A DNA stretch of 64,000 nt, taken from the NCBI RefSeq assembly GCF_000002985.6, contig NC_003283.11:10602001-10666000 (forward strand). The letters are read 5' to 3'. Each line of letters opens with the position of its first letter. The stretch's first letter is position 1. The DNA comes from Caenorhabditis elegans. Lineage: Eukaryota > Nematoda > Chromadorea > Rhabditida > Rhabditidae. Positions 555 through 61,425 of this stretch are shown here, piece after piece. The notes beneath the pieces are model-generated. The model saw only the letters and a program-made list of their open reading frames with translations. It was not told the origin of the DNA and searched no databases. The translations under genes were made by a program, and so were the position numbers.

Positions 555-3392
555 ATGAAGGTAAGAATAAACTACTGGTAAATAAATACTACACTAATCT
601 TTCTCTCCGATTTCTGAAAATAATTGTAGATGGTGGAAAGGTTTAAAGATAGAAGACGCAGAAAGATTATGATAGAAATGGGCGGATCTTTCTCGAGTGA
701 TAATGAAGAAATCTGCAGGAGTTTCCTTTTTGTGATAGAACATAGTGAAAGTACGATTTATCGTTTAATGATACACTTTCTCTTTTTTTTCTTCAAATTT
801 ACAACTGTAATTAAAAGTTAGGCAGATATAAATCTAGCATGAACTCCTAACATTAAAAAATAATTCCAATATTAGAAAAGCGTTTCTTAAAAGTCCTATC
901 ATCTTACTACCTACAACATAGATATGACGTATTGTGTCCAAAATTGTCCAATCTGACAATTTACCCTGAAATTTGTCTCGTCTAAAGTTGCATCTGTGTC
1001 CATTGGGATGATACTGGTCTTTTTGTCCGCTCCTACACAGTTGGCTAGTTTTTATTATACCATCAAGAATCGAGTCGCATTTTTTTCCATGTACTTGCAT
1101 TATTCATGGTGCAGAGAAAAAGAGCGAATATTCAACAGTGATCATGACTGGTACGTAGATTCTATTGACTTCTTTTTTTAACGTTACTTTTTCATAAATA
1201 TAGGTACATTTGAAGATAAAGTATCGGTTCTAAGTTTTTCGCTTGTTTCAAAAATGACTTAATTAAAATCTCCAATTTTGCTAACTTTTCCGTGACGCAG
1301 CTGTTGGAAATTAACTTTTTTAAAAATTATCATTTTTATAGCATATTTTGGTCTTTTATCTCATAATATTTGGTTGATTCAGGCATTTTCAAGTCCAAAA
1401 ATTATCTTAATTGATTGCCTGCCGGCTTTAAACATACCGTAATCAAACAAATAATATGAGATAAAATACCAAAATATGCTACAAAAATAATAATTCAAAA
1501 AAAAAACAGTTAATTTCCAAAAAATTTCCAGAGTTTGACACAAGTTGGCAAAATTAGCCCATCTTTTCAAATTTTTGAACAGCCATAAAAAGTTTTGAAA
1601 ATGTTTTAAAATTCTCATTAAAAACGTGTAATGTCTAGTTTGGTAGCAAGCTGCAAAAAAAAATCCCCTTAAAAAAACAATCCAGAGTCGAATATTGACC
1701 ATTTTTGTATTCTTGCTCTCTTTCTCTCACAATTCAATTGTCCCTTATGATCATGGCCTCATTGTTAATGCAAAAGCCACCGATCGGTGCGTTTTTCAAG
1801 CGATTCGTTTTCCCACTCCCCCAGTTTGTTCACATTTTCGATTTCTGAGTTCCGATTGAGCTTCTATTGACACACCTTTTGCCCGGAACTTAACGTCGAT
1901 ATCGATTTTTATCATAAACTAGAGCTCTTCCATGAAAGTTTATAAAAAATTTCAACGTTTCATTTCTTGAAAATAACTGAGTTTTTCCATCTAGAAGAAT
2001 AAAATGCAAAATGCCAGGTTTCCGCTAACTCTTTCAGCACGTTTCATTGAGGAAGTAACTTGATATTTTTATAAAATGTTTCCCATTTTCAGGTCATCCG
2101 GTACAACTGGAGGCTTATCTTCGTTCTAATGGGACTTGCTCTTGTACTTGGAATCCTAATATGTACAACTTCCGCATGGGGTCAATGGAGAACAAATCAG
2201 AGAACACATCAACTTTCCTTGCTGCCAGAATCATCAACACTCCGATTATGTCGGGATTTCACGAATACAACTCGATTCAAAGAGATTCTGGCTCCAATTA
2301 TGGTTCCTCGCATTGTTGACACTAAACAACACCGACAAGTTGGAGATGTAAGCTCAAAAATATTATAAATTATACGTTGTTTCTGAAATAGGTATTTTCA
2401 GTATTTACAAAGTTTTTTGCATAACTTGGGATTCGCTACTGAATGGGATGCTTTCACTGACACAACTCCATTAGGGACTCGCAACTTCCGAAATTTAATT
2501 GCAACATTTGATGAATCAGCTCCACGTCGTCTTGTTCTTGCATGTCACTACGATTCGAAAATCATTCCCGGTCAAGTAATGATTGCGGCAACAGATTCAG
2601 CTGTACCCTGTGCTATGATGCTTGATATTGCTCAAACACTTGCTCCATATATGTACAAACGAGTTGCTCAGCAGATTGGACTTCAATTGATTTTCTTTGA
2701 TGGTGAAGAAGCATTCCGTGATTGGACTGCTACTGATTCACTTTATGGATCAAGGTTTCTTAATTATAGTTATTATTATGAGGTCGTAGGGAGAACATTT
2801 TCAGGCACTTGGCACAGAAATGGGAGCAAAAGTGGTATCCATCTTCAAGTAGTCTCAACAATTTTGAACTCAGCAAAGAACTTGATAGGATTGTGAGTAT
2901 TTATCTTACGTTTTAGTTTAGAACTTTTTTTTTTCAGGACGTTCTCATGCTATTGGATCTACTCGGAGCTGCCAATCCATCAATTGGAAATACGATAGGA
3001 ATGGGTGCAAACGATCTTTTCAGCCAGTTAGCTGATGTGGAATCGAATCTCCGAACTTCGGGATGTCTTAGTTCTTTGAGAAGGAATGTCTTTAATAAGC
3101 AATTATCGTACAATCAAGTTGAAGATGATCACATTCCATTTTTGAAAAGAGGTAATTAGCAAGTTGAATGACTTATTTTTTACATTGCCTATGTGGTTTC
3201 CACAATGATAACTTGAAATAACCAATCAAATTTTCAGGAGTTCCAATTCTTCATCTGATCACAGTTCCATTCCCATCCGTCTGGCATCGATCTTCCGATA
3301 ATGCAAATGCTCTTCATTATCCAACAATCGATCATATGACTGCAGTTATTCGTGTCTTCGTGGCTAAATATCTTGGAATCGCCCCAGCATAG
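555..3392 (+). CDS. glutaminyl-peptide cyclotransferase (glutaminyl cyclase)
   Basis: Converts N-terminal Gln (or Glu) of secreted peptides to pyroglutamate in the secretory pathway. Exons: 555-560, 2093-2347, 2402-2754, 2805-2892, 2938-3151, 3238-3392; all junctions close in phase and give 356 residues, close to the human enzyme (about 361). Residues about 8-27 are a hydrophobic signal peptide or signal anchor. The M28-type zinc site is intact: Asp152 in ATDSAVPC, the Glu189-Glu190 pair in FDGEEAF (catalytic Glu then metal Glu) and His322 in FPSVWH; LLDLLGA holds the second active-site Asp. The two-codon first exon (ATG AAG, 1.5 kb upstream) is inferred because it joins in phase to the signal sequence; otherwise the start would be Met at 2129. 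A poly(A) signal AATAAA is at 3561-3566. I recall a C. elegans orthologue (H27A22.1) but could not check it. Confidence 0.93.
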
Positions 3393-3558: not shown

Positions 3559-3697
3559 ATAATAAAAATGGAAATTTATGATTGCCTATTAAACCATAAT
3601 GGCAGTCCGCTTATCAATCATACAATCAATTGAGGGGCCGAAATATCTTTGGGGTAATTGGCACCAGTACTTTGATCTAGACTCACATCGCGGGAGG
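3559..3697. other. 3' end of the cyclase gene and left flank of the minisatellite
   Basis: Holds the AATAAA signal at 3561-3566 and about 100 bases of unique sequence before the first repeat unit. An ATG at 3599 opens a frame that runs straight into the array, but no splice or promoter signal supports it as a gene start. Confidence 0.6.
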
Positions 3698-6600
3698 CCA
3701 CCAGAAATACCAGTTTATGAAAAAGTGGCTCTAGGGCCACCAGAAATACCAGTTTATGAAAAAGTGGCTCTAGGGCCACCAGAAATACCAGTTTATGAAA
3801 AAGTGGCTCTAGGGCCACCAGAAATACCAGTTTATGGAAAAGTGGCTCTAGGGCCACCAGAAATACGATTTTATGGAAAAGTGGCTCTAGGGCCACCAGA
3901 AATACCAGTTTATGAAAAAGTGGCTCAAGGGCCACCAGAAATACCAGTTTATGAAAAAGTGGCTCTAGGGCCACCAGAAATACCAGTTTATGAAAAAGTG
4001 GCTCTAGGGCCACCAGAAATACCAGTTTATGGAAAAGTGGCTCTAGGGCCACCAGAAATACCAGTTTATGGAAAAGTGGCTCTAGGGCCACCAGAAATAC
4101 GATTTTATGGAAAAGTGGCTCTAGGGCCACCAGAAATACCAGTTTATGGAAAAGTGGCTCTAGGGCCACCAGAAATACCAGTTTATGAAAAAGTGGCTCT
4201 AGGGCCACCAGAAATACCAGTTTATGGAAAAGTGGCTCAAGGGCCACCAGAAATACCAGTTTATGAAAAAGTGGCTCAAGGGCCACCAGAAATACCAGTT
4301 TATGAAAAAGTGGCTCTAGGGCCACCAGAAATACCAGTTTATGAAAAAGTGGCTCTAGGGCCACCAGAAATACCAGTTTATGGAAAAGTGGCTCTAGGGC
4401 CACCAGAAATACCAGTTTATGAAAAAGTGGCTCTAGGGCCACCAGAAATACCAGTTTATGGAAAAGTGGCTCAAGGGCCACCAGAAATACCAGTTTATGA
4501 AAAAGTGGCTCTAGGGCCACCAGAAATACCAGTTTATGGAAAAGTGGCTCAAGGGCCACCAGAAATACCAGTTTATGGAAAAGTGGCTCAAGGGCCACCA
4601 GAAATACCAGTTTATGAAAAAGTGGCTCTAGGGCCACCAGAAATACGATTTTATGGAAAAGTGGCTCTAGGGCCACCAGAAATACCAGTTTATGAAAAAG
4701 TGGCTCTAGGGCCACCAGAAATACCAGTTTATGGAAAAGTGGCTCTAGGGCCACCAGAAATACGATTTTATGGAAAAGTGGCTCTAGGGCCACCAGAAAT
4801 ACCAGTTTATGAAAAAGTGGCTCAAGGGCCACCAGAAATACCAGTTTATGAAAAAGTGGTTCTAGGGCCACCAGAAATACCAGTTTATGAAAAAGTGGCT
4901 CTAGGGCCACCAGAAATACCAGTTTATGAAAAAGTGGCTCTAGGGCCACCAGAAATACCAGTTTATGAAAAAGTGGCTCTAGGGCCACCAGAAATACCAG
5001 TTTATGAAAAAGTGGCTCTAGGGCCACCAGAAATACCAGTTTATGAAAAAGTGGCTCTAGGGCCACCAGAAATATCAGTTTATGAAAAAGTGGCTCTAGG
5101 GCCACCAGAAATATCAGTTTATGAAAAAGTGACTCTAGGGCCACCAGAAATACCAGTTTATGAAAAAGTGGCTCTAGGGCCACCAGAAATACCAGTTTAT
5201 GAAAAAGTGGCTCTAGGGCCACCAGAAATACCAGTTTATGAAAAAGTGGCTCTAGGGCCACCAGAAATACCAGTTTATGAAAAAGTGGCTCTAGGGCCAC
5301 CAGAAATACCAGTTTATGAAAAAGTGGCTCTAGGGCCACCAGAAATATCAGTTTATGAAAAAGTGGCTCTAGGGCCACCAGAAATACCAGTTTATGAAAA
5401 AGTGGCTCTAGGGCCACCAGAAATATCAGTTTATGAAAAAGTGGCTCTAGGGCCACCAGAAATACCAGTTTATGGAAAAGTGGCTCTAGGGCCACCAGAA
5501 ATACGATTTTATGGAAAAGTGGCTCTAGGGCCACCAGAAATACCAGTTTATGAAAAAGTGGCTCAAGGGCCACCAGAAATACCAGTTTATGAAAAAGTGG
5601 CTCTAGGGCCACCAGAAATACCAGTTTATGGAAAAGTGGCTCTAGGGCCACCAGAAATACCAGTTTATGGAAAAGTGGCTCTAGGGCCACCAGAAATACC
5701 AGTTTATGGAAAAGTGGCTCAAGGGCCACCAGAAATACCAGTTTATGAAAAAGTGGCTCTAGGGCCACCAGAAATACCAGTTTATGGAAAAGTGGCTCTA
5801 GGGCCACCAGAAATACCAGTTTATGGAAAAGTGGCTCTAGGGCCACCAGAAATACGATTTTATGGAAAAGTGGCTCTAGGGCCACCAGAAATACCAGTTT
5901 ATGAAAAAGTGGCTCAAGGGCCACCAGAAATACCAGTTTATGAAAAAGTGGCTCTAGGGCCACCAGAAATACCAGTTTATGAAAAAGTGGCTCTAGGGCC
6001 ACCAGAAATACCAGTTTATGGAAAAGTGGCTCTAGGGCCACCAGAAATACGATTTTATGGAAAAGTGGCTCTAGGGCCACCAGAAATACCAGTTTATGAA
6101 AAAGTGGCTCTAGGGCCACCAGAAATACCAGTTTATGGAAAAGTGGCTCTAGGGCCACCAGAAATACGATTTTATGGAAAAGTGGCTCTAGGGCCACCAG
6201 AAATACCAGTTTATGGAAAAGTGGCTCTAGGGCCACCAGAAATACGATTTTATGGAAAAGTGGCTCTAGGGCCACCAGAAATACCAGTTTATGAAAAAGT
6301 GGCTCAAGGGCCACCAGAAATACCAGTTTATGAAAAAGTGGCTCTAGGGCCACCAGAAATACCAGTTTATGAAAAAGTGGCTCTAGGGCCACCAGAAATA
6401 CCAGTTTATGGAAAAGTGGCTCTAGGGCCACCAGAAATACCAGTTTATGAAAAAGTGGCTCTAGGGCCACCAGAAATACCAGTTTATGGAAAAGTGGCTC
6501 AAGGGCCACCAGAAATACGATTTTATGGAAAAGTGGCTCTAGGGCCACCAGAAATACCAGTTTATGAAAAAGTGGCTCTAGGGCCACCAGAAATACCAGT

Positions 6601-9600
6601 TTATGGAAAAGTGGCTCTAGGGCCACCAGAAATACGATTTTATGGAAAAGTGGCTCTAGGGCCACCAGAAATACCAGTTTATGAAAAAGTGGCTCAAGGG
6701 CCACCAGAAATACCAGTTTATGAAAAAGTGGTTCTAGGGCCACCAGAAATACCAGTTTATGAAAAAGTGGCTCTAGGGCCACCAGAAATACCAGTTTATG
6801 GAAAAGTGGCTCTAGGGCCACCAGAAATACCAGTTTATGAAAAAGTGGCTCTAGGGCCACCAGAAATACCAGTTTATGGAAAAGTGGCTCAAGGGCCACC
6901 AGAAATACCAGTTTATGAAAAAGTGGCTCTAGGGCCACCAGAAATACCAGTTTATGGAAAAGTGGCTCAAGGGCCACCAGAAATACCAGTTTATGAAAAA
7001 GTGGCTCTAGGGCCACCAGAAATACCAGTTTATGGAAAAGTGGCTCAAGGGCCACCAGAAATACCAGTTTATGGAAAAGTGGCTCAAGGGCCACCAGAAA
7101 TACCAGTTTATGAAAAAGTGGCTCTAGGGCCACCAGAAATACGATTTTATGGAAAAGTGGCTCTAGGGCCACCAGAAATACCAGTTTATGAAAAAGTGGC
7201 TCTAGGGCCACCAGAAATACCAGTTTATGAAAAAGTGGCTCTAGGGCCACCAGAAATACGATTTTATGGAAAAGTGGCTCTAGGGCCACCAGAAATACCA
7301 GTTTATGAAAAAGTGGCTCTAGGGCCACCAGAAATACCAGTTTATGAAAAAGTGGCTCTAGGGCCACCAGAAATACGATTTTATGGAAAAGTGGCTCTAG
7401 GGCCACCAGAAATACCAGTTTATGAAAAAGTGGCTCTAGGGCCACCAGAAATACCAGTTTATGAAAAAGTGGCTCTAGGGCCACCAGAAATACCAGTTTA
7501 TGGAAAAGTGGCTCTAGGGCCACCAGAAATACGATTTTATGGAAAAGTGGCTCTAGGGCCACCAGAAATACCAGTTTATGAAAAAGTGGCTCTAGGGCCA
7601 CCAGAAATACCAGTTTATGGAAAAGTGGCTCTAGGGCCACCAGAAATACCAGTTTATGGAAAAGTGGCTCTAGGGCCACCAGAAATACGATTTTATGGAA
7701 AAGTGGCTCTAGGGCCACCAGAAATACCAGTTTATGAAAAAGTGGCTCAAGGGCCACCAGAAATACCAGTTTATGAAAAAGTGGCTCTAGGGCCACCAGA
7801 AATACCAGTTTATGGAAAAGTGGCTCTAGGGCCACCAGAAATACCAGTTTATGGAAAAGTGGCTCTAGGGCCACCAGAAATACCACTTTATGGAAAAGTG
7901 GCTCCAGGGCCACCAGAAATACCAGTTTATGAAAAAGTGGCTCTAGGGCCACCAGAAATACCAGTTTATGGAAAAGTGACTCTAGGGCCACCAGAAATAC
8001 CAGTTTATGGAAAAGTGGCTCTAGGGCCACCAGAAATACCAATTTATGAAAAAGTGGCTCTAGGGCCACCAGAAATACCAGTTTATGAAAAAGTGGCTCT
8101 AGGGCCACCAGAAATACCAGTTTATGAAAAAGTGGCTCTAGGGCCACCAGAAATACCAGTTTATGAAAAAGTGGCTCTAGGGCCACCAGAAATATCAGTT
8201 TATGAAAAAGTGGCTCTAGGGCCACCAGAAATACCAGTTTATGAAAAAGTGGCTCTAGGGCCACCAGAAATACCAGTTTATGAAAAAGTGGCTCTAGGGC
8301 CACCAGAAATATCAGTTTATGAAAAAGTGGCTCTAGGGCCACCAGAAATACCAGTTTATGGAAAAGTGGCTCTAGGGCCACCAGAAATACCAGTTTATGA
8401 AAAAGTGGCTCTAGGGCCACCAGAAATACCAGTTTATGAAAAAAAGGGCTCTAGGGCCACCAGAAATACCAGTTTATGGAAAAGTGGCTCTAGGGCCACC
8501 AGAAATACCAGTTTATGAAAAAGTGGCTCTAGGGCCACCAGAAATACCAGTTTATGAAAAAGTGGCTCTAGGGCCACCAGAAATATCAGTTTATGAAAAA
8601 GTGGCTCTAGGGCCACCAGAAATACCAGTTTATGAAAAAGTGGCTCTAGGGCCACCAGAAATATCAGTTTATGAAAAAGTGGCTCTGGGGCCACCAGAAA
8701 TACCAGTTTATGGAAAAGTGGCTCTAGGGCCACCAGAAATACGATTTTATGGAAAAGTGGCTCTGGGGCCACCAGAAATACCAGTTTATGAAAAAGTGGC
8801 TCTAGGGCCACCAGAAATATCAGTTTATGGAAAAGTGGCTCTAGGGCCACCAGAAATACGATTTTATGGAAAAGTGGCTCTGGGGCCACCAGAAATACCA
8901 GTTTATGGAAAAGTGGCTCTGGGGCCACCAGAAATACCAGTTTATGGAAAAGTGGCTCAAGGGCCACCAGAAATACCAGTTTATGAAAAAGTGGCTCTAG
9001 GGCCACCAGAAATATCAGTTTATGAAAAAGTGGCTCTAGGGCCACCAGAAATACCAGTTTATGAAAAAGTGGCTCAAGGGCCACCAGAAATACCAGTTTA
9101 TGAAAAAGTGGCTCTAGGGCCACCAGAAATACGATTTTATGGAAAAGTGGCTCTAGGGCCACCAGAAATACGATTTTATGGAAAAGTGGCTCTAGGGCCA
9201 CCAGAAATACGATTTTATGAAAAAGTGGCTCAAGGGCCACCAGAAATACCAGTTTATGGAAAACTGGCTCAAGGGCCACCAGAAATACCAGTTTATGGAA
9301 AAGTGGCTCTAGGGCCACCAGAAATACGATTTTATGGAAAAGTGGCTCTAGGGCCACCAGAAATATCAGTTTATGAAAAAGTGGCTCTAGGGCCACCAGA
9401 AATACCAGTTTATGAAAAAGTGGCTCCAGGGCCACCAGAAATATCAGTTTATGAAAAAGTGGCTCAAGGGCCACCAGAAATACCAGTTTATGAAAAAGTG
9501 GCTCTAGGGCCACCAGAAATACCAGTTTATGAAAAAGTGGCTCTAGGGCCACCAGAAATACCAGTTTATGAAAAAGTGGCTCTAGGGCCACCAGAAATAC

Positions 9601-10493
9601 GATTTTATGGAAAAGTGGCTCTAGGGCCACCAGAAATACCAGTTTATGGAAAAGTGGCTCTAGGGCCACCAGAAATACCAGTTTATGGAAAAGTGGCTCT
9701 AGGGCCACCAGAAATATCAGTTTATGAAAAAGTGGCTCTAGGGCCACCAGAAATATCAGTTTATGAAAAAGTGGCTCAAGGGCCACCAGAAATACCAGTT
9801 TATGAAAAAGTGGCTCCAGGGCCACCAGAAATACCAGTTTATGAAAAAGTGGCTCCAGGGCCACCAGAAATACGGTTTTATGAAAAAGTGGCTCAAGGGC
9901 CACCAGAAATACCAGTTTATGAAAAAGTGGCTCTAGGGCCACCAGAAATACCAGTTTATGAAAAAGTGGCTCTAGGGCCACCAGAAATATGATTTTATGG
10001 AAAAGTGGCTCTAGGGCCACCAGAAATACCAGTTTATGAAAAAGTGGCTCTAGGGCCACCAGAAATACCAGTTTATGAAAAAGTGGCTCTAGGGCCACCA
10101 GAAATACCAGTTTATGAAAAAGTGGCTCTTGGGCCACCAGAAATACCAGTTTATGAAAAAGTGGCTCTAGGGCCACCAGAAATATGATTTTATGGAAAAG
10201 TGGCTCTAGGGCCACCAGAAATACCAGTTTATGAAAAAGTGGCTCTAGGGCCACCAGAAATACCAGTTTATGAAAAAGTGGCTCTAGGGCCACCAGAAAT
10301 ACCAGTTTATGAAAAAGTGGCTCTAGGGCCACCAGAAATACGATTTTATGGAAAAGTGGCTCTAGGGCCACCAGAAATACGATTTTATGGAAAAGTGGCT
10401 CTAGGGCCACCAGAAATACCAGTTTATGAAAAAGTGGCTCTAGGGCCACCAGAAATACCAGTTTATGAAAAAGTGGCTCTAGGGCCACCAGAG
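3698..10493. repeat. 39-bp minisatellite, about 174 tandem units
   Basis: Roughly 6.8 kb made almost entirely of one 39-base unit that starts CCACCAGAAATACCAG and ends GTGGCTCTAGGG (6796/39 gives about 174 copies). Units vary at a few sites: ACCAGTTTATG / ATCAG / ACGATTTTATG, GAAAAA / GGAAAA, and CTCTAGG / CTCAAGG / CTCCAGG. Because 39 is divisible by 3 and the unit lacks stops, long frames are open on both strands (for example 3599-8518 plus and 3618-8420 minus), reading PPEIPVYEKVALG or its antisense. A unit near 8441-8448 has one extra base that shifts frame, and ATATGA variants near 9986 and 10183 add stops. Nearly all common variants change the amino acid, so I do not call it a protein gene. 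It lies between two genes. Confidence 0.97.
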
Positions 10494-10935
10494 CCCACCT
10501 AGCCGATGTAGCCGATGGAGACTTTGTCACTTTGGAGACTTTGTCTCAAAGAGACCCTCGTCTGCTCAAAGTTTGTCATCTCGGAGACCGGGCTTATACG
10601 GTACTCTAATACGAATAATTGATCATTCTGGGCAACAGGACAAATTTTCCAAAACACAATGTAGGTCTACAAATTGGAATAAAATTGAAATAATATCTTC
10701 ATTGGCAACTTTCATTCATCAATAAAAATTATTTGTAAAACAACCTCGTTTAGAAAAGCGGGAAATATTTTAATTTAGCGACTAGAATAACCAGGTGAAA
10801 AATCTACCCGCAATTTTAGTCGGTTCAATAAAAGGATACAAACAAAATTAAAGAGTTGGCATTGAAAATGACACCTGAGAAAGAAGATTATGGCAAGTCA
10901 AGATATTTCTTTTTACAAAATACAAATTATTTGCT
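10494..10935. other. right flank of the minisatellite and 3' flank of the GPCR gene
   Basis: Unique sequence. Just beyond the array, GGAGACTTTGTC occurs twice (about 10517-10528 and 10534-10545), followed by partly complementary TCTCAAAGAGA, so this edge is locally repetitive. The rest is AT-rich and probably contains the 3' UTR of the minus-strand GPCR. Confidence 0.4.
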
Positions 10936-13589
10936 TTAAATTGCAGTTGATTCTTTTGATGATCCTTGAATTTCGGTTCCAAGTAATGGAACAGAAACCG
11001 CATTTGAAGCAGTTAACTTTGGTGAATTGGCTCTAGAAGGAGTGTTTGGGAAACGGATTGTACTTCTTTCAGACGTCATACGATAGGAGATTCTCGAAGT
11101 TTGATCCGTTACGAGTACCTGAAAATTGAAAAAATTAGAACAATTTCACACTCAATGAAACATTAATTAAAATACGAGACAAGAGACGGGACTTGTTTTA
11201 ATCATGGACACGCAGAAAATTATTCAAAATCAGTGAGCACATTTTATCACAAAGGTGAGTGATTAAGCAATGAATTTTAAATGTTAAACATTTTAAATTA
11301 TTATTCTGCACAAGCACATACAGAAACTTGCCCTAAAACTTCTAACTCGTTTCTTGAGATACCTTGTAAAAAGTGGAGTAGAGGAGATTTCGGTTTAAAA
11401 TACTCAAAATGATCAGAAATGCAGAAATGTCATAAAGATTATTCTTAGTATATTAAAGGAAAATCCTCCTTCCCACTACCCCACTTTTCAGTTCCACGCC
11501 TTTGAAAATTGGTAGTCTTGAATTAAATTCTAACTACTCCAATATTCTTTTCCGATTAATTAAAGATTCTTCTACTAATCTTACACTACCATTGCTCAAC
11601 TACCTTGGCAGCCTTAAAGTTTTGATCAATACTAAAGAAATCCATAAAATTTGAGCGATGATAGTGCCAGATAGACTAAAATTATGTAGTATGAACCCAA
11701 CAAAGGAAACAAATTAAAAAGAAGAAGAGGAAAGTTTTCAAAATTGCAAGTGAAATAAGTGAAAAATAAATGTTCGTGACATGCAAATTTGGTGATATTG
11801 CAGACAATTCGTGTGTGTGTTTGTGTGTGTCAGTGAATGTTGCAGGAGAGTATTTTTGGGAACAGACATCTCAAAGTTGCCATTCCGTCTTACTGTATGT
11901 GGTGCTGGTTGAGCAATTGGAATCCGTTTTCGAATTGAATCACTGACTGAATGAACCATGGAGAGAAGAAAGCGCTGTCAAAAGATAGCATAGAAAGTTG
12001 AAATGAATATAGTGGGAATTGTGAGATGAGATAAGTGGGATGATAAAATGAAAATAAGTGAATATCGGATAAAATCAATTATTGATAGTTTTGAAATTGA
12101 AAGAAAAACATATATTTTGTTATTTTATTCTAGTGAGAAGTTATTACCTTTCCCTTTTGCCGTTCTGCGTATCCTGGACAAAGAATTCGCTTCCAAGCAA
12201 TGACAGCAGTTTTGCGGAAATTTGCACTGAAATTTAGATTTTTAAAAACTTTTCTTAATTCTCTAACATTTTTCACAAGCACTTTATACCCCTGAAATAC
12301 CAAAAAATCTTACCTGGAAAATGCGTAGACCAATACATCAATTGCCGTGTTCATGTAGTACATGTAATGAGCAGTATTATAAACAGTCTGAAATCGATTC
12401 AACATGATTTTGTGAGACTTATTCAATGTAAGCTCACCACAAAAAGTTCTGATCTTGTATCTCCTGATGGGGGTGACTGGTAGATAATTTGAAAAACAAT
12501 TTCAATCATCATAATTACATAGAATGGGGTGTTCAATACTACGAACACTAATGGCATAACCCAAAGAATTCTGGTCCATGTACCAGATGATGATGATGAT
12601 CCTCCAGTTCTTCTTGAATTGCTCTTTTTAGTTTCTGCCATGAAATGTTCTTGTGATTTTTGTACTTGTAGTGCAACAAGAATGTTCAGAACAACAATTA
12701 TTCCACATGGTACCACGTAGCAAAGTACTGTATCTACAGCTTGAGCGATGATTTGATAGTTTGCTTCTTTTAATGCACATTTCCTTTCTTCGGTTGCTGG
12801 CTCTAGTGAGAAAAATTGAAACAGTTGTAGAACAAAAGGAATTGGAACCCAGTAAAGCATCACTTTTGCTCGATCCACGTGACCATACTGAAAAACTCAA
12901 ATAAAATAGAATTCCGAAAAATTCTTAAAAATCGTTTTCCGAGTAAACAATAACGCATCGTATGATTTCATGGAATATTAAATACGCCACAAACACGCCG
13001 AAAAAACAAACAATAACCTTCATATGAGACAATGGATGAGCAATAGCCAAATATCTTTCAATAGTTAGTGCTGCTGTTGACCAACTCGAGATATATGAAG
13101 CCGTCATGAGAACGTATTCTAGACCAACACAATATTCGTACGCAATCCAATCAACTTTGAAACAAATCAGAAGGATTCCAGTCAAGAATATGCTATCAGC
13201 TAATGTTAGAACTATCAAATAGATATTAGCATTCACCTGAAAATATATCAATGAAGTTTAATTTGAAATGTAGTTCAGTTACTCTTCTACAAGATATCAG
13301 TAGATTATATTCGATTTAAAATTTATTATTCCAAAGATCTAATTATTCATAGTCATAATTAATAGGCCCCACACGTATTCCCAATACTCACCCTCCTTAG
13401 TCTTGAATGAAATATGGTAACGAGAGAAATGACGTTCCCAGACAATCCAAAAATGACGATCAGAGGCAGAAGATACATGTAGACGTCAAATTGAAACCCC
13501 GTTTCCTCCATTTCTGATGTAATCTGCTCTTGCGTTTGTACCAACAGTCCTGATGACGTGGCAGTAGTTGTGGGAACTAATGACGTCAT
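10936..13589 (-). CDS. rhodopsin-family GPCR, neuropeptide (FMRFamide/TRH-like) receptor type
   Basis: Seven-helix plasma-membrane receptor, probably for a neuropeptide. Exons in order: 13589-13392, 13236-13018, 12887-12438, 12387-12314, 12226-12148, 11118-10936, giving 400 residues in phase. TM1 has GLSGNVISL, TM2 LTLADSIF, TM3 ends ALTIERYLAIAHPL (ERY in place of DRY), TM6 has LNTPFY, and TM7 reads NTAIDVLVYAF where most receptors have NPxxY. Intracellular loop 3 has a Ser-rich run, and the Ser/Thr-rich tail could take GRK phosphorylation. The start follows TTTCAG immediately at 13590-13591, so a 5' UTR exon or trans-spliced leader probably precedes it. The second exon could instead extend into 12938-13017 (see findings). 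Ligand and exact subfamily are not recognisable to me. Confidence 0.88.
11810..11832. repeat. short GT-rich microsatellite
   Basis: Alternating GT tract within the 1-kb last intron of the GPCR gene. No other function seen. Confidence 0.7.
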
Positions 13590-16794: not shown

Positions 16795-16947
16795 TACCGT
16801 ATTTCCTCTATTAGTCTTGCACCCCTATTAGTATTGCACCCCTACGGACCAATCGAAAATCAGTCATGCAGACTCTATTAGTCTTGCACCCCTACGGGTC
16901 AATTGAAAATTAGTCTTGCATTCAAGACTAATAGAGGAAATACGGTA
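16795..16947. mobile_element. MITE-like inverted-repeat element, copy 1
   Basis: Begins TACCGTATTTCCTCTATTAG and ends with its inverse. The interior repeats short units such as TCTATTAGTCTTGCA, CCCCTACGG and TTGAAAATTAGTCTTGCA. No coding capacity. The same termini recur at 22232-22566 and 61305-61425, so this is a dispersed non-autonomous family. Confidence 0.8.
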
Positions 16948-22231: not shown

Positions 22232-22566
22232 TACCGTATTTCCTCTATTAGTCTTGCAGCCTCTATTAGTCTTGCAGCCCTATTTCTGCCTGGCCAGCTA
22301 TACTAAGAGGAAACTTCAACAATTTTGTAATTTTTCGGATAAATTGAACTTGAAAGTGATTAAATAGCTTATGAAATATTGGAAAATAATGAATTTTTCA
22401 TGCCTTAAGCGGTAAAAAAATAAGTTTTCAACAAAAGTTGGTAAGTTTTCCAAAGTTATTGGGCTTTCGAAAATTAGTCTTGCAGCCTCTAATAGTCTCG
22501 CAGTCTCTATTAGTCTTGCACCCCTACGGGTTGATTGAAAATTAGTCTTGCATGCAAGATACGGTA
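22232..22566. mobile_element. MITE-like inverted-repeat element, copy 2
   Basis: Starts with the same TACCGTATTTCCTCTATTAG terminus as copy 1 and ends in TACGGTA after the shared CCCCTACGG / GAAAATTAGTCTTGCA internal repeats. It is longer than the other copies because about 200 bases of unrelated sequence (about 22285-22470) interrupt it. The right terminus is degraded. Confidence 0.7.
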
Positions 22567-44928: not shown

Positions 44929-46445
44929 TCTCACTGCCACGATGGAGTTATAAACAAAGAAATGACCACGAAGTTAGCCATTTTATGTTTTATTTATTTT
45001 CAAACAAATTATTTTTGCATGTTCACGTACTTTATAGTTACCGTATACACATATTCTTCATAATCCTACTTTATTCATTTTGCAATTGAGCAAAGCATCT
45101 GCAGGTGCCTGATATTTTACGGCTTCCGCCCATTACCGTAGCTGAAAGAGTATAAATAGAAGATTCATCGTTCAAATGTTTAATGTTCGACTTTTCAAAT
45201 AATGTATTCCTACTAATTTCTGAAAAATAAGCCATCAAATGCGTCTAGTATCAAAATCATGTAAAAACTGTAAAACAGATTTTGTATGAGACGCATTTCG
45301 ATGACGGGCACAACAGAGACACCGCCCATAAGACGGTATCTTTTGATGGTAAGAGGTGTGAATCTATAATACGACTGTGTGATCCATGTGTCGGTTACCA
45401 TAAAAAGGTACATCTGTGGTCCCAAAAAAGGTGATAATGAGTATTCAAAGCATTTTAGCAGCTGCATAGTTACCGTATCTTAATAATAATAATAATAATT
45501 TATTACGCTCGCTGGGAGACGTGAAGGAATACAGAATACAAAAGTTATCATTGTTCGCTTGTACTAGAATTGGTGCAGTCGGGCAATTGTTTCCATTCCA
45601 TTAGAATGTTGTCCTTGTCCTTGCGTTGTCCTTGCGTAGACTCCCCCATAGTGGGCGAGCGATTCCCGAGTGAAAATAATCACGGAATGAAAAGAGTATA
45701 GATGTTTTCCTACTGTACAGTGTTTTCTCTATCAGTGTTGTCAGTCATTTACATTAATATTATCTTTTTCAGAGATGAAAAAGGAAAGCAAAACTAGATG
45801 TGAATTTTCTGTGAGTTTGATAAGCCTTTCCATAAAACGATCACAACATTTGTTGTACGTTTTGAAGAAAATTATAAACTACGACATGCGGATACATTAT
45901 TTTCAGACACATTTGGCGTTTCTATACGGAAAACTACAAGTTTACATAGCTGCACCTATGGCGACTTATATTTGTTTTGATTTTTTGGTTTCGGACTTCA
46001 AATAATATTACTTTTGTTGATCACAAATACTATTCTTCAACTTTCAAAAAACCGTCCACAATTTTTTAAAATTAAATTTTCATGTCAGCTTTAACAACAC
46101 TCTTTTTCAGTTCTATTTGACCCTTATTTGACCTTTGCTTTTATCAATTTTTATAATCATATTTGCAAATAAAATGATTGCCAAGGCAAATATTTTGTCT
46201 GAAAAATATTAAAAGTCAACAAAGTTATGAAACTTTTTCTACCGAAAACTATCAAAAAGTCTGAGACTGAGACACGGCTATATTTTTATTTGGCTCTCAC
46301 GATTCTGGAAAAGTACTTTTGTATGCTGACTACTGTACTTTCTCACATACAAAGATATATATTTACATTTCTCGACATCATTCCTTTTTTTATTCTGTAA
46401 GCATTTTCCAGAAAGCTTCTGATAGTACTCATCAAAACTTGAAAG
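44929..46445. other. intergenic region between the membrane protein and aquaporin genes
   Basis: Divergent spacer, so it should hold promoters for both genes. Contains a (TAA)n microsatellite at about 45481-45500 and short TTGTCCTTG(CG) tandem copies around 45608-45640. An ATG at 45775 sits two bases after a good acceptor and is followed by a phase-0 donor at 45810; it could be a further aquaporin first exon. A 76-codon plus ORF and an 84-codon minus ORF have no recognisable features. Confidence 0.4.
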
Positions 46446-61304: not shown

Positions 61305-61425
61305 TACCGTATTTCCTCTATTAGTCTTACATGCAAGACTAATTTTCGATTGACCAGTAGGGGTGCAAGACTAATAGGGGTGCAAGACTAATAGAGGCTG
61401 CAAGACTAATAGAGGAAATACGGTA
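61305..61425. mobile_element. MITE-like inverted-repeat element, copy 3
   Basis: Compact copy with intact ends: TACCGTATTTCCTCTATTAG at the left and its exact inverse at the right, separated by GGGGTGCAAGACTAATAG-type repeats. It is the cleanest of the three copies. Confidence 0.85.

Follow-up and report, generated by a model that had tools for sequence, protein, structure and literature searches.

A 39-bp minisatellite on Caenorhabditis elegans chromosome V with open frames on both strands is probably a non-coding member of a small dispersed repeat family

The closest described relatives of the locus reported here are the C. elegans satellites identified with SATFIND (Subirana, Alba and Messeguer 2015, PMC4595182), which are defined as at least 10 tandem repeats of a 10-200-bp unit of regular length. 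The model described in that paper has a short ancestral block copied elsewhere, followed by growth via duplications of 100-300 bp. Two other systems come near: the Helitron-associated family Cele_Fam_7_40 and the coding minisatellites of C. elegans ttn-1 (PMC6210790). The chromosome V array analyzed here contains 174 units, 173 of them exactly 39 bp long, and lies within the SATFIND definition when its terms are applied directly rather than by a SATFIND run. Related satellites elsewhere in the genome, by which a family is recognized, were also found, namely an array of about 90 units on chromosome IV and three short relatives. We conclude, with a probability of roughly 0.9, that the array is a non-coding C. 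elegans minisatellite belonging to a small family of 39-bp repeats dispersed in the genome, that it was probably copied as a block and then grew, and that its reading frames are incidental; the dispersal, the shared variants, the local order of units and the absence of visible coding constraint are direct observations.

The window, that is, the whole 64-kb stretch of chromosome V that was analyzed (10,602,001-10,666,000 of the C. elegans reference), contains the array and its two neighboring genes at the following positions:
3696..10491, plus strand: 39-bp minisatellite array (TRF and unit splitting), 174 full units plus 9 bp, consensus GGCCACCAGAAATACCAGTTTATGAAAAAGTGGCTCTAG
2417..3392, plus strand: 3' part of a QPCTL-like gene of the M28 fold (Pfam PF04389, E 2.7e-14, on the 2417-2896 ORF; reading frames)
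10936..13251, minus strand: 3' part of a rhodopsin-type GPCR gene (Pfam 7tm_1 and reading frames)

The preliminary description had placed the array between two ordinary genes, and the domain matches agreed, with a gene of M28/glutaminyl-cyclase type upstream on the plus strand and a 7tm_1 GPCR downstream on the minus strand (7tm_1 matches at 12423-12878, E 6.6e-09, and 12925-13251, E 2.6e-07). The array lies between their convergent 3' ends, about 130 bp past the AATAAA (3561-3566) of the QPCTL-like gene, whose stop codon is at 3390-3392, and about 445 bp short of the GPCR coding end, which was placed near 10936 from reading frames, not from annotation. We take the upstream gene to be H27A22.1, a match of name to place that rests on the protein type and the chromosome V interval. 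H27A22.1 is described as a QPCTL orthologue within chrV:10.08-11.35 Mb and is included among zinc-QTL candidates (PMC7682890). Just to the right of the array lies a repeat of roughly 78 bp (GGAGACTTTGTCAC...), which recurs at seven more places in the genome with 80-97% identity. At the gathering threshold, an Rfam scan of the 64-kb window matched the lsy-6 microRNA precursor (45232-45304, RF00823, 91.8 bits) as its sole hit, and no known structured RNA was matched in the array. Elsewhere in the window, CTATTAGTCTTGCACCCCTA-like motifs were observed in both orientations at 16808-16920, 22242-22284, 22475-22520 and 61358-61415; these short tandem or scattered copies are apparently one dispersed repeat.

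An array of about 174 units over 6.8 kb, as first described, was borne out by two approaches. TRF reported positions 3696-10492, with period 39, 174.3 copies and 95% matches, and script-based splitting resolved 174 full head-to-tail units of 23 kinds, all 39 bp long except for a single 40-bp unit, followed by 9 bp of a further unit up to position 10491. The 173 units of 39 bp had a mean identity of 97.3% to the consensus and a mean pairwise identity of 95.8%, with 14 distinct substitutions relative to the consensus at 10 variable sites of the unit. The amino-acid variants listed earlier (E/G, L/Q/P, P/S/R and V/F) are real and were seen in the split units, and the "few" units said to contain stops are exactly 2 of the 173. 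As for the unit said to carry a one-base frameshift, a single 40-bp unit was indeed found at 8415, but it differs by more than one inserted base, having a longer run of A and an altered GT after the run. The interrupting features are as follows:
8415..8454, plus strand: the single 40-bp, frame-shifting unit (unit splitting)
9990..9992, plus strand: in-frame TGA, from C15T combined with the C16G/G18T/A25G haplotype
10185..10187, plus strand: second in-frame TGA, from C15T on the same haplotype
Because the C. elegans reference assembly is described as often under-stating the length of such arrays (PMC6210790), 174 units may be a lower bound on the copy number.

Genome-wide searches revealed relatives of the unit on three chromosomes. 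With up to 3 mismatches, the 22-mer CCACCAGAAATACCAGTTTATG matched 261 forward and 6 reverse places, against 0 and 0 for a reversed-pattern control. The array studied here accounted for 174 of the forward matches and a chromosome IV array for 86, while 4 reverse matches fell in three short relatives; outside these five located loci there remained 1 of the 261 forward and 2 of the 6 reverse matches. Since a 29-mer (173 and 4 matches) was wholly accounted for by the five loci, and the palindrome core (199 places) by four of them, the leftover 22-mer matches are either weaker relatives or coincidental. The family was therefore taken as two large arrays and at least three short relatives, the latter being:
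chrI:12,927,819: short relative of about 1.7 units
chrV:8,771,268: short relative of about 2.2 units
chrIV:13,358,847: short relative of about 3 diverged units, followed by part of a unit in inverted orientation
At the last of these, the diverged units followed by the inverted partial unit form a hairpin-like arrangement. A larger element carrying this copy was considered and rejected, as the inverted part matched itself alone genome-wide (E 0.05). Variants are shared across the family. The CCAG and CGA forms, which are polymorphic in the large chromosome V array, both occur in the chrI and chrIV:13.36 relatives, so this polymorphism is probably older than the spread of the family. TAGGGCC is common to the chrI copy, the chrV:8.77 copy and the large chromosome V array, and the chromosome IV copies mostly have TAGAGCC. 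This small family, with variants shared among two large arrays and three or more short relatives, could be used to study the seeding and growth of minisatellites in C. elegans.

The second large array comprises about 90 units at chrIV:11,072.4-11,075.9 kb and adjoins an array of the 9-bp unit TACCTAGAC; its consensus differs from that of chromosome V at 3 of 39 sites. Together, the two chromosome IV arrays (chrIV:11,070,934-11,075,944) interrupt a coding exon of a protein-tyrosine phosphatase. With the arrays left out, the phosphatase residues flanking them read as one continuous frame that matches Pfam PF00102 over 58 residues (positions 171-228), and no target-site duplication longer than 1 bp was visible by eye. 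Reading in from the upstream phosphatase exon, a stop is soon met inside the 9-bp array.

Long frames on both strands, one of them above 1,600 codons, had been reported for the chromosome V array, and both were confirmed:
3599..8518, plus strand: mechanical ORF of 1639 aa with PPEIPVYEKVALG repeats, judged to be no gene from the shuffle null and the substitution tests
3618..8420, minus strand: mechanical ORF of 1600 aa with LEPLFHKLVFLVA repeats, judged to be no gene
They arise because, by chance, one frame on each strand of the 39-bp unit is free of stops (exactly 2 of its 6 frames are open). Among 20,000 base-shuffled 39-mers, 81.6% had an open frame on both strands and 98.8% had at least one of six frames open; the frames of the array are therefore unremarkable.

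The substitutions gave no sign of coding constraint. In the plus frame, 11 of the 14 distinct changes were non-synonymous, 3 were synonymous and none produced a stop on its own, compared with a neutral expectation (kappa 2) of 69% non-synonymous, 28% synonymous and 3% stop. The observation that the variants are almost all non-synonymous therefore stood as a count, but about 70% is expected under neutrality and the count is no evidence in itself. The probability of at least 11 non-synonymous changes of 14 was 0.41 at omega 1, 0.07 at omega 0.5 and 0.008 at omega 0.3; on these 14 distinct changes, purifying selection on the plus-frame repeat was not detected, with omega of 0.3 or less rejected (P ≤ 0.008) and omega 0.5 not rejected (P 0.07). 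A dN/dS across units well below 1, which the preliminary description had named as evidence against its reading, was thus tested for and not seen. Likewise, no open frame of either array showed an excess of synonymous changes (P 0.25 to 0.82).

Comparison with the chromosome IV paralogue was the most informative. There, the frame homologous to PPEIPVYEKVALG contained stops in 20 of 90 units (17 of 86 when 39-bp units only are counted), and the plus frame did not stay open across related copies. The sense frame that was open instead, ATRNTSLWKSGSR, had a stop in none of the 86 chromosome IV 39-bp units, whereas it was closed in 102 of 173 chromosome V units. One homologous frame, the antisense LEPLFHKLVFLVA, was open in both arrays, with a stop in 0 of 173 and 0 of 86 39-bp units. 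Although this counts against a non-coding reading, chance suffices to explain it and the openness is expected, because few substitutions could close the frame: the probability of no stop among the distinct substitutions seen was 0.84 and 0.88 for the two arrays, or about 0.7 jointly if they are independent. On chromosome IV, 1 of 10 substitutions would by itself close LEPLFHKLVFLVA, yet no unit had a stop.

These data also bear on the possibility that the 1639-codon plus frame, perhaps longer in a true assembly, encodes a secreted or structural protein of 13-residue repeats. The ORF starts with an ATG at 3599, stops affect just 2 of the 173 39-bp units and a frame shift 1 of 174, and a few C. 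elegans satellites are described as parts of genes with amino-acid repeats (PMC6210790). However, both-strand open frames are expected of a 39-bp unit, synonymous changes were not in excess (3 of 14), the homologous frame is interrupted on chromosome IV, and the N2 frame is itself broken by the shift at 8415 and the two TGAs. The sole Pfam match of the 1639-aa frame, to Lysostaphin_N, fell under the cut-off (59.5 bits, E 3.6e-16, against 60), no single stretch of it passed, and the match is taken to reflect repeat periodicity. We consider a repeat protein extremely improbable, and coding on either strand was rejected on the shuffled-unit null, the substitution counts and the chromosome IV paralogue. 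The earlier proposal that the frames are open since the unit length is divisible by three, and are non-coding, was upheld by the shuffle null and the lack of visible constraint, and above all by that paralogue.

A role as DNA or RNA, kept by selection, would be another reason for such an array to persist, for example as a site of CENP-A or heterochromatin, or as the source of a hairpin RNA whose small RNAs act on the neighboring 3' ends. C. elegans satellites can bear H3K9me2, and some are described as having CENP-A affinity (PMC5788517, PMC4595182). Within the unit, GTGGCTCTAGGGCCAC is a palindrome at 14 of 16 positions, and at 16 of 16 in the chromosome IV form; among 5000 shuffles of the chromosome V unit, such arms occurred in 1.4% for the V form (at most 1 mismatch) and 0.04% for the IV form (exact). 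Three tandem units folded better than shuffles as RNA (z -3.8 for the plus and -2.9 for the minus strand) and as plus-strand DNA (z -3.7), but the minus-strand DNA fold was unremarkable (z -0.56). The palindrome is poorer here than on chromosome IV and both arrays vary within it: the variants at positions 30, 33, 34, 37 and 38 fall in the palindrome, with no compensating change visible by eye. Moreover, palindromes are described as frequent in Caenorhabditis satellite consensus sequences (PMC4595182). The longest variant-free run in the unit was 15 bp (P 0.048 if variants are placed at random). It hints weakly at constraint, but these 15 bp do vary in the chromosome IV array, which contradicts the hint. 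We therefore regard a selected DNA or RNA role as highly improbable. The earlier suggestion that any selection would act at the DNA or RNA level retains the 15-bp run and the folding as weak hints, set against a palindrome that is better on chromosome IV and variable in both arrays; the variant-free run, the palindrome and the folding gave no good evidence of such selection. Function is not needed to explain the array.

We then considered whether a transposon, such as a Helitron, carried the array to new sites. Helitrons are described as harboring several satellite families of C. elegans (PMC4595182), and the short interspersed repeat with seven more copies makes up the right flank of the array (10516-10595). 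No listed copy of this repeat, however, lies closer than 100 kb to any of the other four loci, and the left flank had no other genomic match beyond array units among the matches listed (to E 1.7e-8). By eye, the flanks of the five loci have no obvious common sequence, and, as noted above, no target-site duplication above 1 bp was seen at the phosphatase-exon insertion. At the sensitivity used, the flank searches revealed neither a Helitron flank nor a shared element. We consider transposon-borne spread very unlikely.

The order of units within the array provided information on its growth. At lag 1, the mutual information between unit types was 0.93, compared with 0.67 (sd 0.06) in shuffled arrays, and none of 2000 shuffles was as high; at lag 2 the order was also non-random (0 of 500 shuffles as high). 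Non-random order at these two lags is what block duplication predicts. At lags 3, 4 and 5 the order was not significant (P 0.30, 0.07 and 0.08). A higher-order repeat structure was rejected, as the longest exact repeated block of unit types was 8, a length that shuffles also reach, and of the five lags just 1 and 2 were non-random. Tested singly, none of six variants occurred in adjacent units significantly more often than expected (lowest P 0.06). Some variants were unevenly placed, with C15T and T37C displaced toward the right part of the array (P 0.02 each) and four A38G units clustered (0 of 5000 shuffles).

Under the preferred reading of a copied and expanded non-coding block, two or three units would have been copied to new chromosomal sites, probably in association with repair and without a transposase. 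Slippage or unequal exchange would then have enlarged the array by duplicating runs of several units, and the near-palindromic, A-tract-bearing unit may favor this. A bolder version would make the 39-bp unit self-promoting through its near-palindrome, with blocks of 2-3 units entering unrelated sites without a transposase, even the chromosome IV phosphatase exon without loss of a codon, and then exploding into kilobase arrays. We consider this version unlikely; if true, the family would be a clean system in which to watch the birth of satellites in C. elegans strains.

The array carries a caution for annotation: a tandem array whose unit is divisible by three usually shows giant frames on both strands, which ought to be assessed by comparison with shuffled units and with paralogous arrays. 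Our literature search found no paper on a 39-bp C. elegans minisatellite, and none on minisatellite open reading frames on both strands arising from a multiple-of-three unit. By kind, the locus resembles the SATFIND satellites in its unit within 10-200 bp and at least 10 copies, in its relatives on other chromosomes, in its palindrome and A-tracts, and in its short seeds, with possible signs of block growth in the unit order at lags 1 and 2; compared by the description in that paper, no difference was found (PMC4595182). The origin proposed here is likewise close to the model given there, including the frequent palindromes and A-tracts. At 6.8 kb, the array falls just under that paper's table of satellites above about 7 kb (PMC4595182), and it is likely already listed in a satellite catalogue. 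The Helitron-associated Cele_Fam_7_40 is similar in being dispersed and in unit length (40, by its family name, versus 39 bp), but no Helitron flank was found here, and Cele_Fam_7_40 is described as built on AGAANNTTCT, which is absent from the 39-bp unit (PMC4595182). With the ttn-1 coding minisatellites the array shares its long open frame and a unit length that is a multiple of three (PMC6210790); unlike them, it is intergenic, contains stops and a frameshift, shows no sign of purifying selection and has a paralogous array, on chromosome IV, in which a different sense frame is open. The array is an ordinary member of a well-described class, one of the many non-coding tandem repeats of C. 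elegans.
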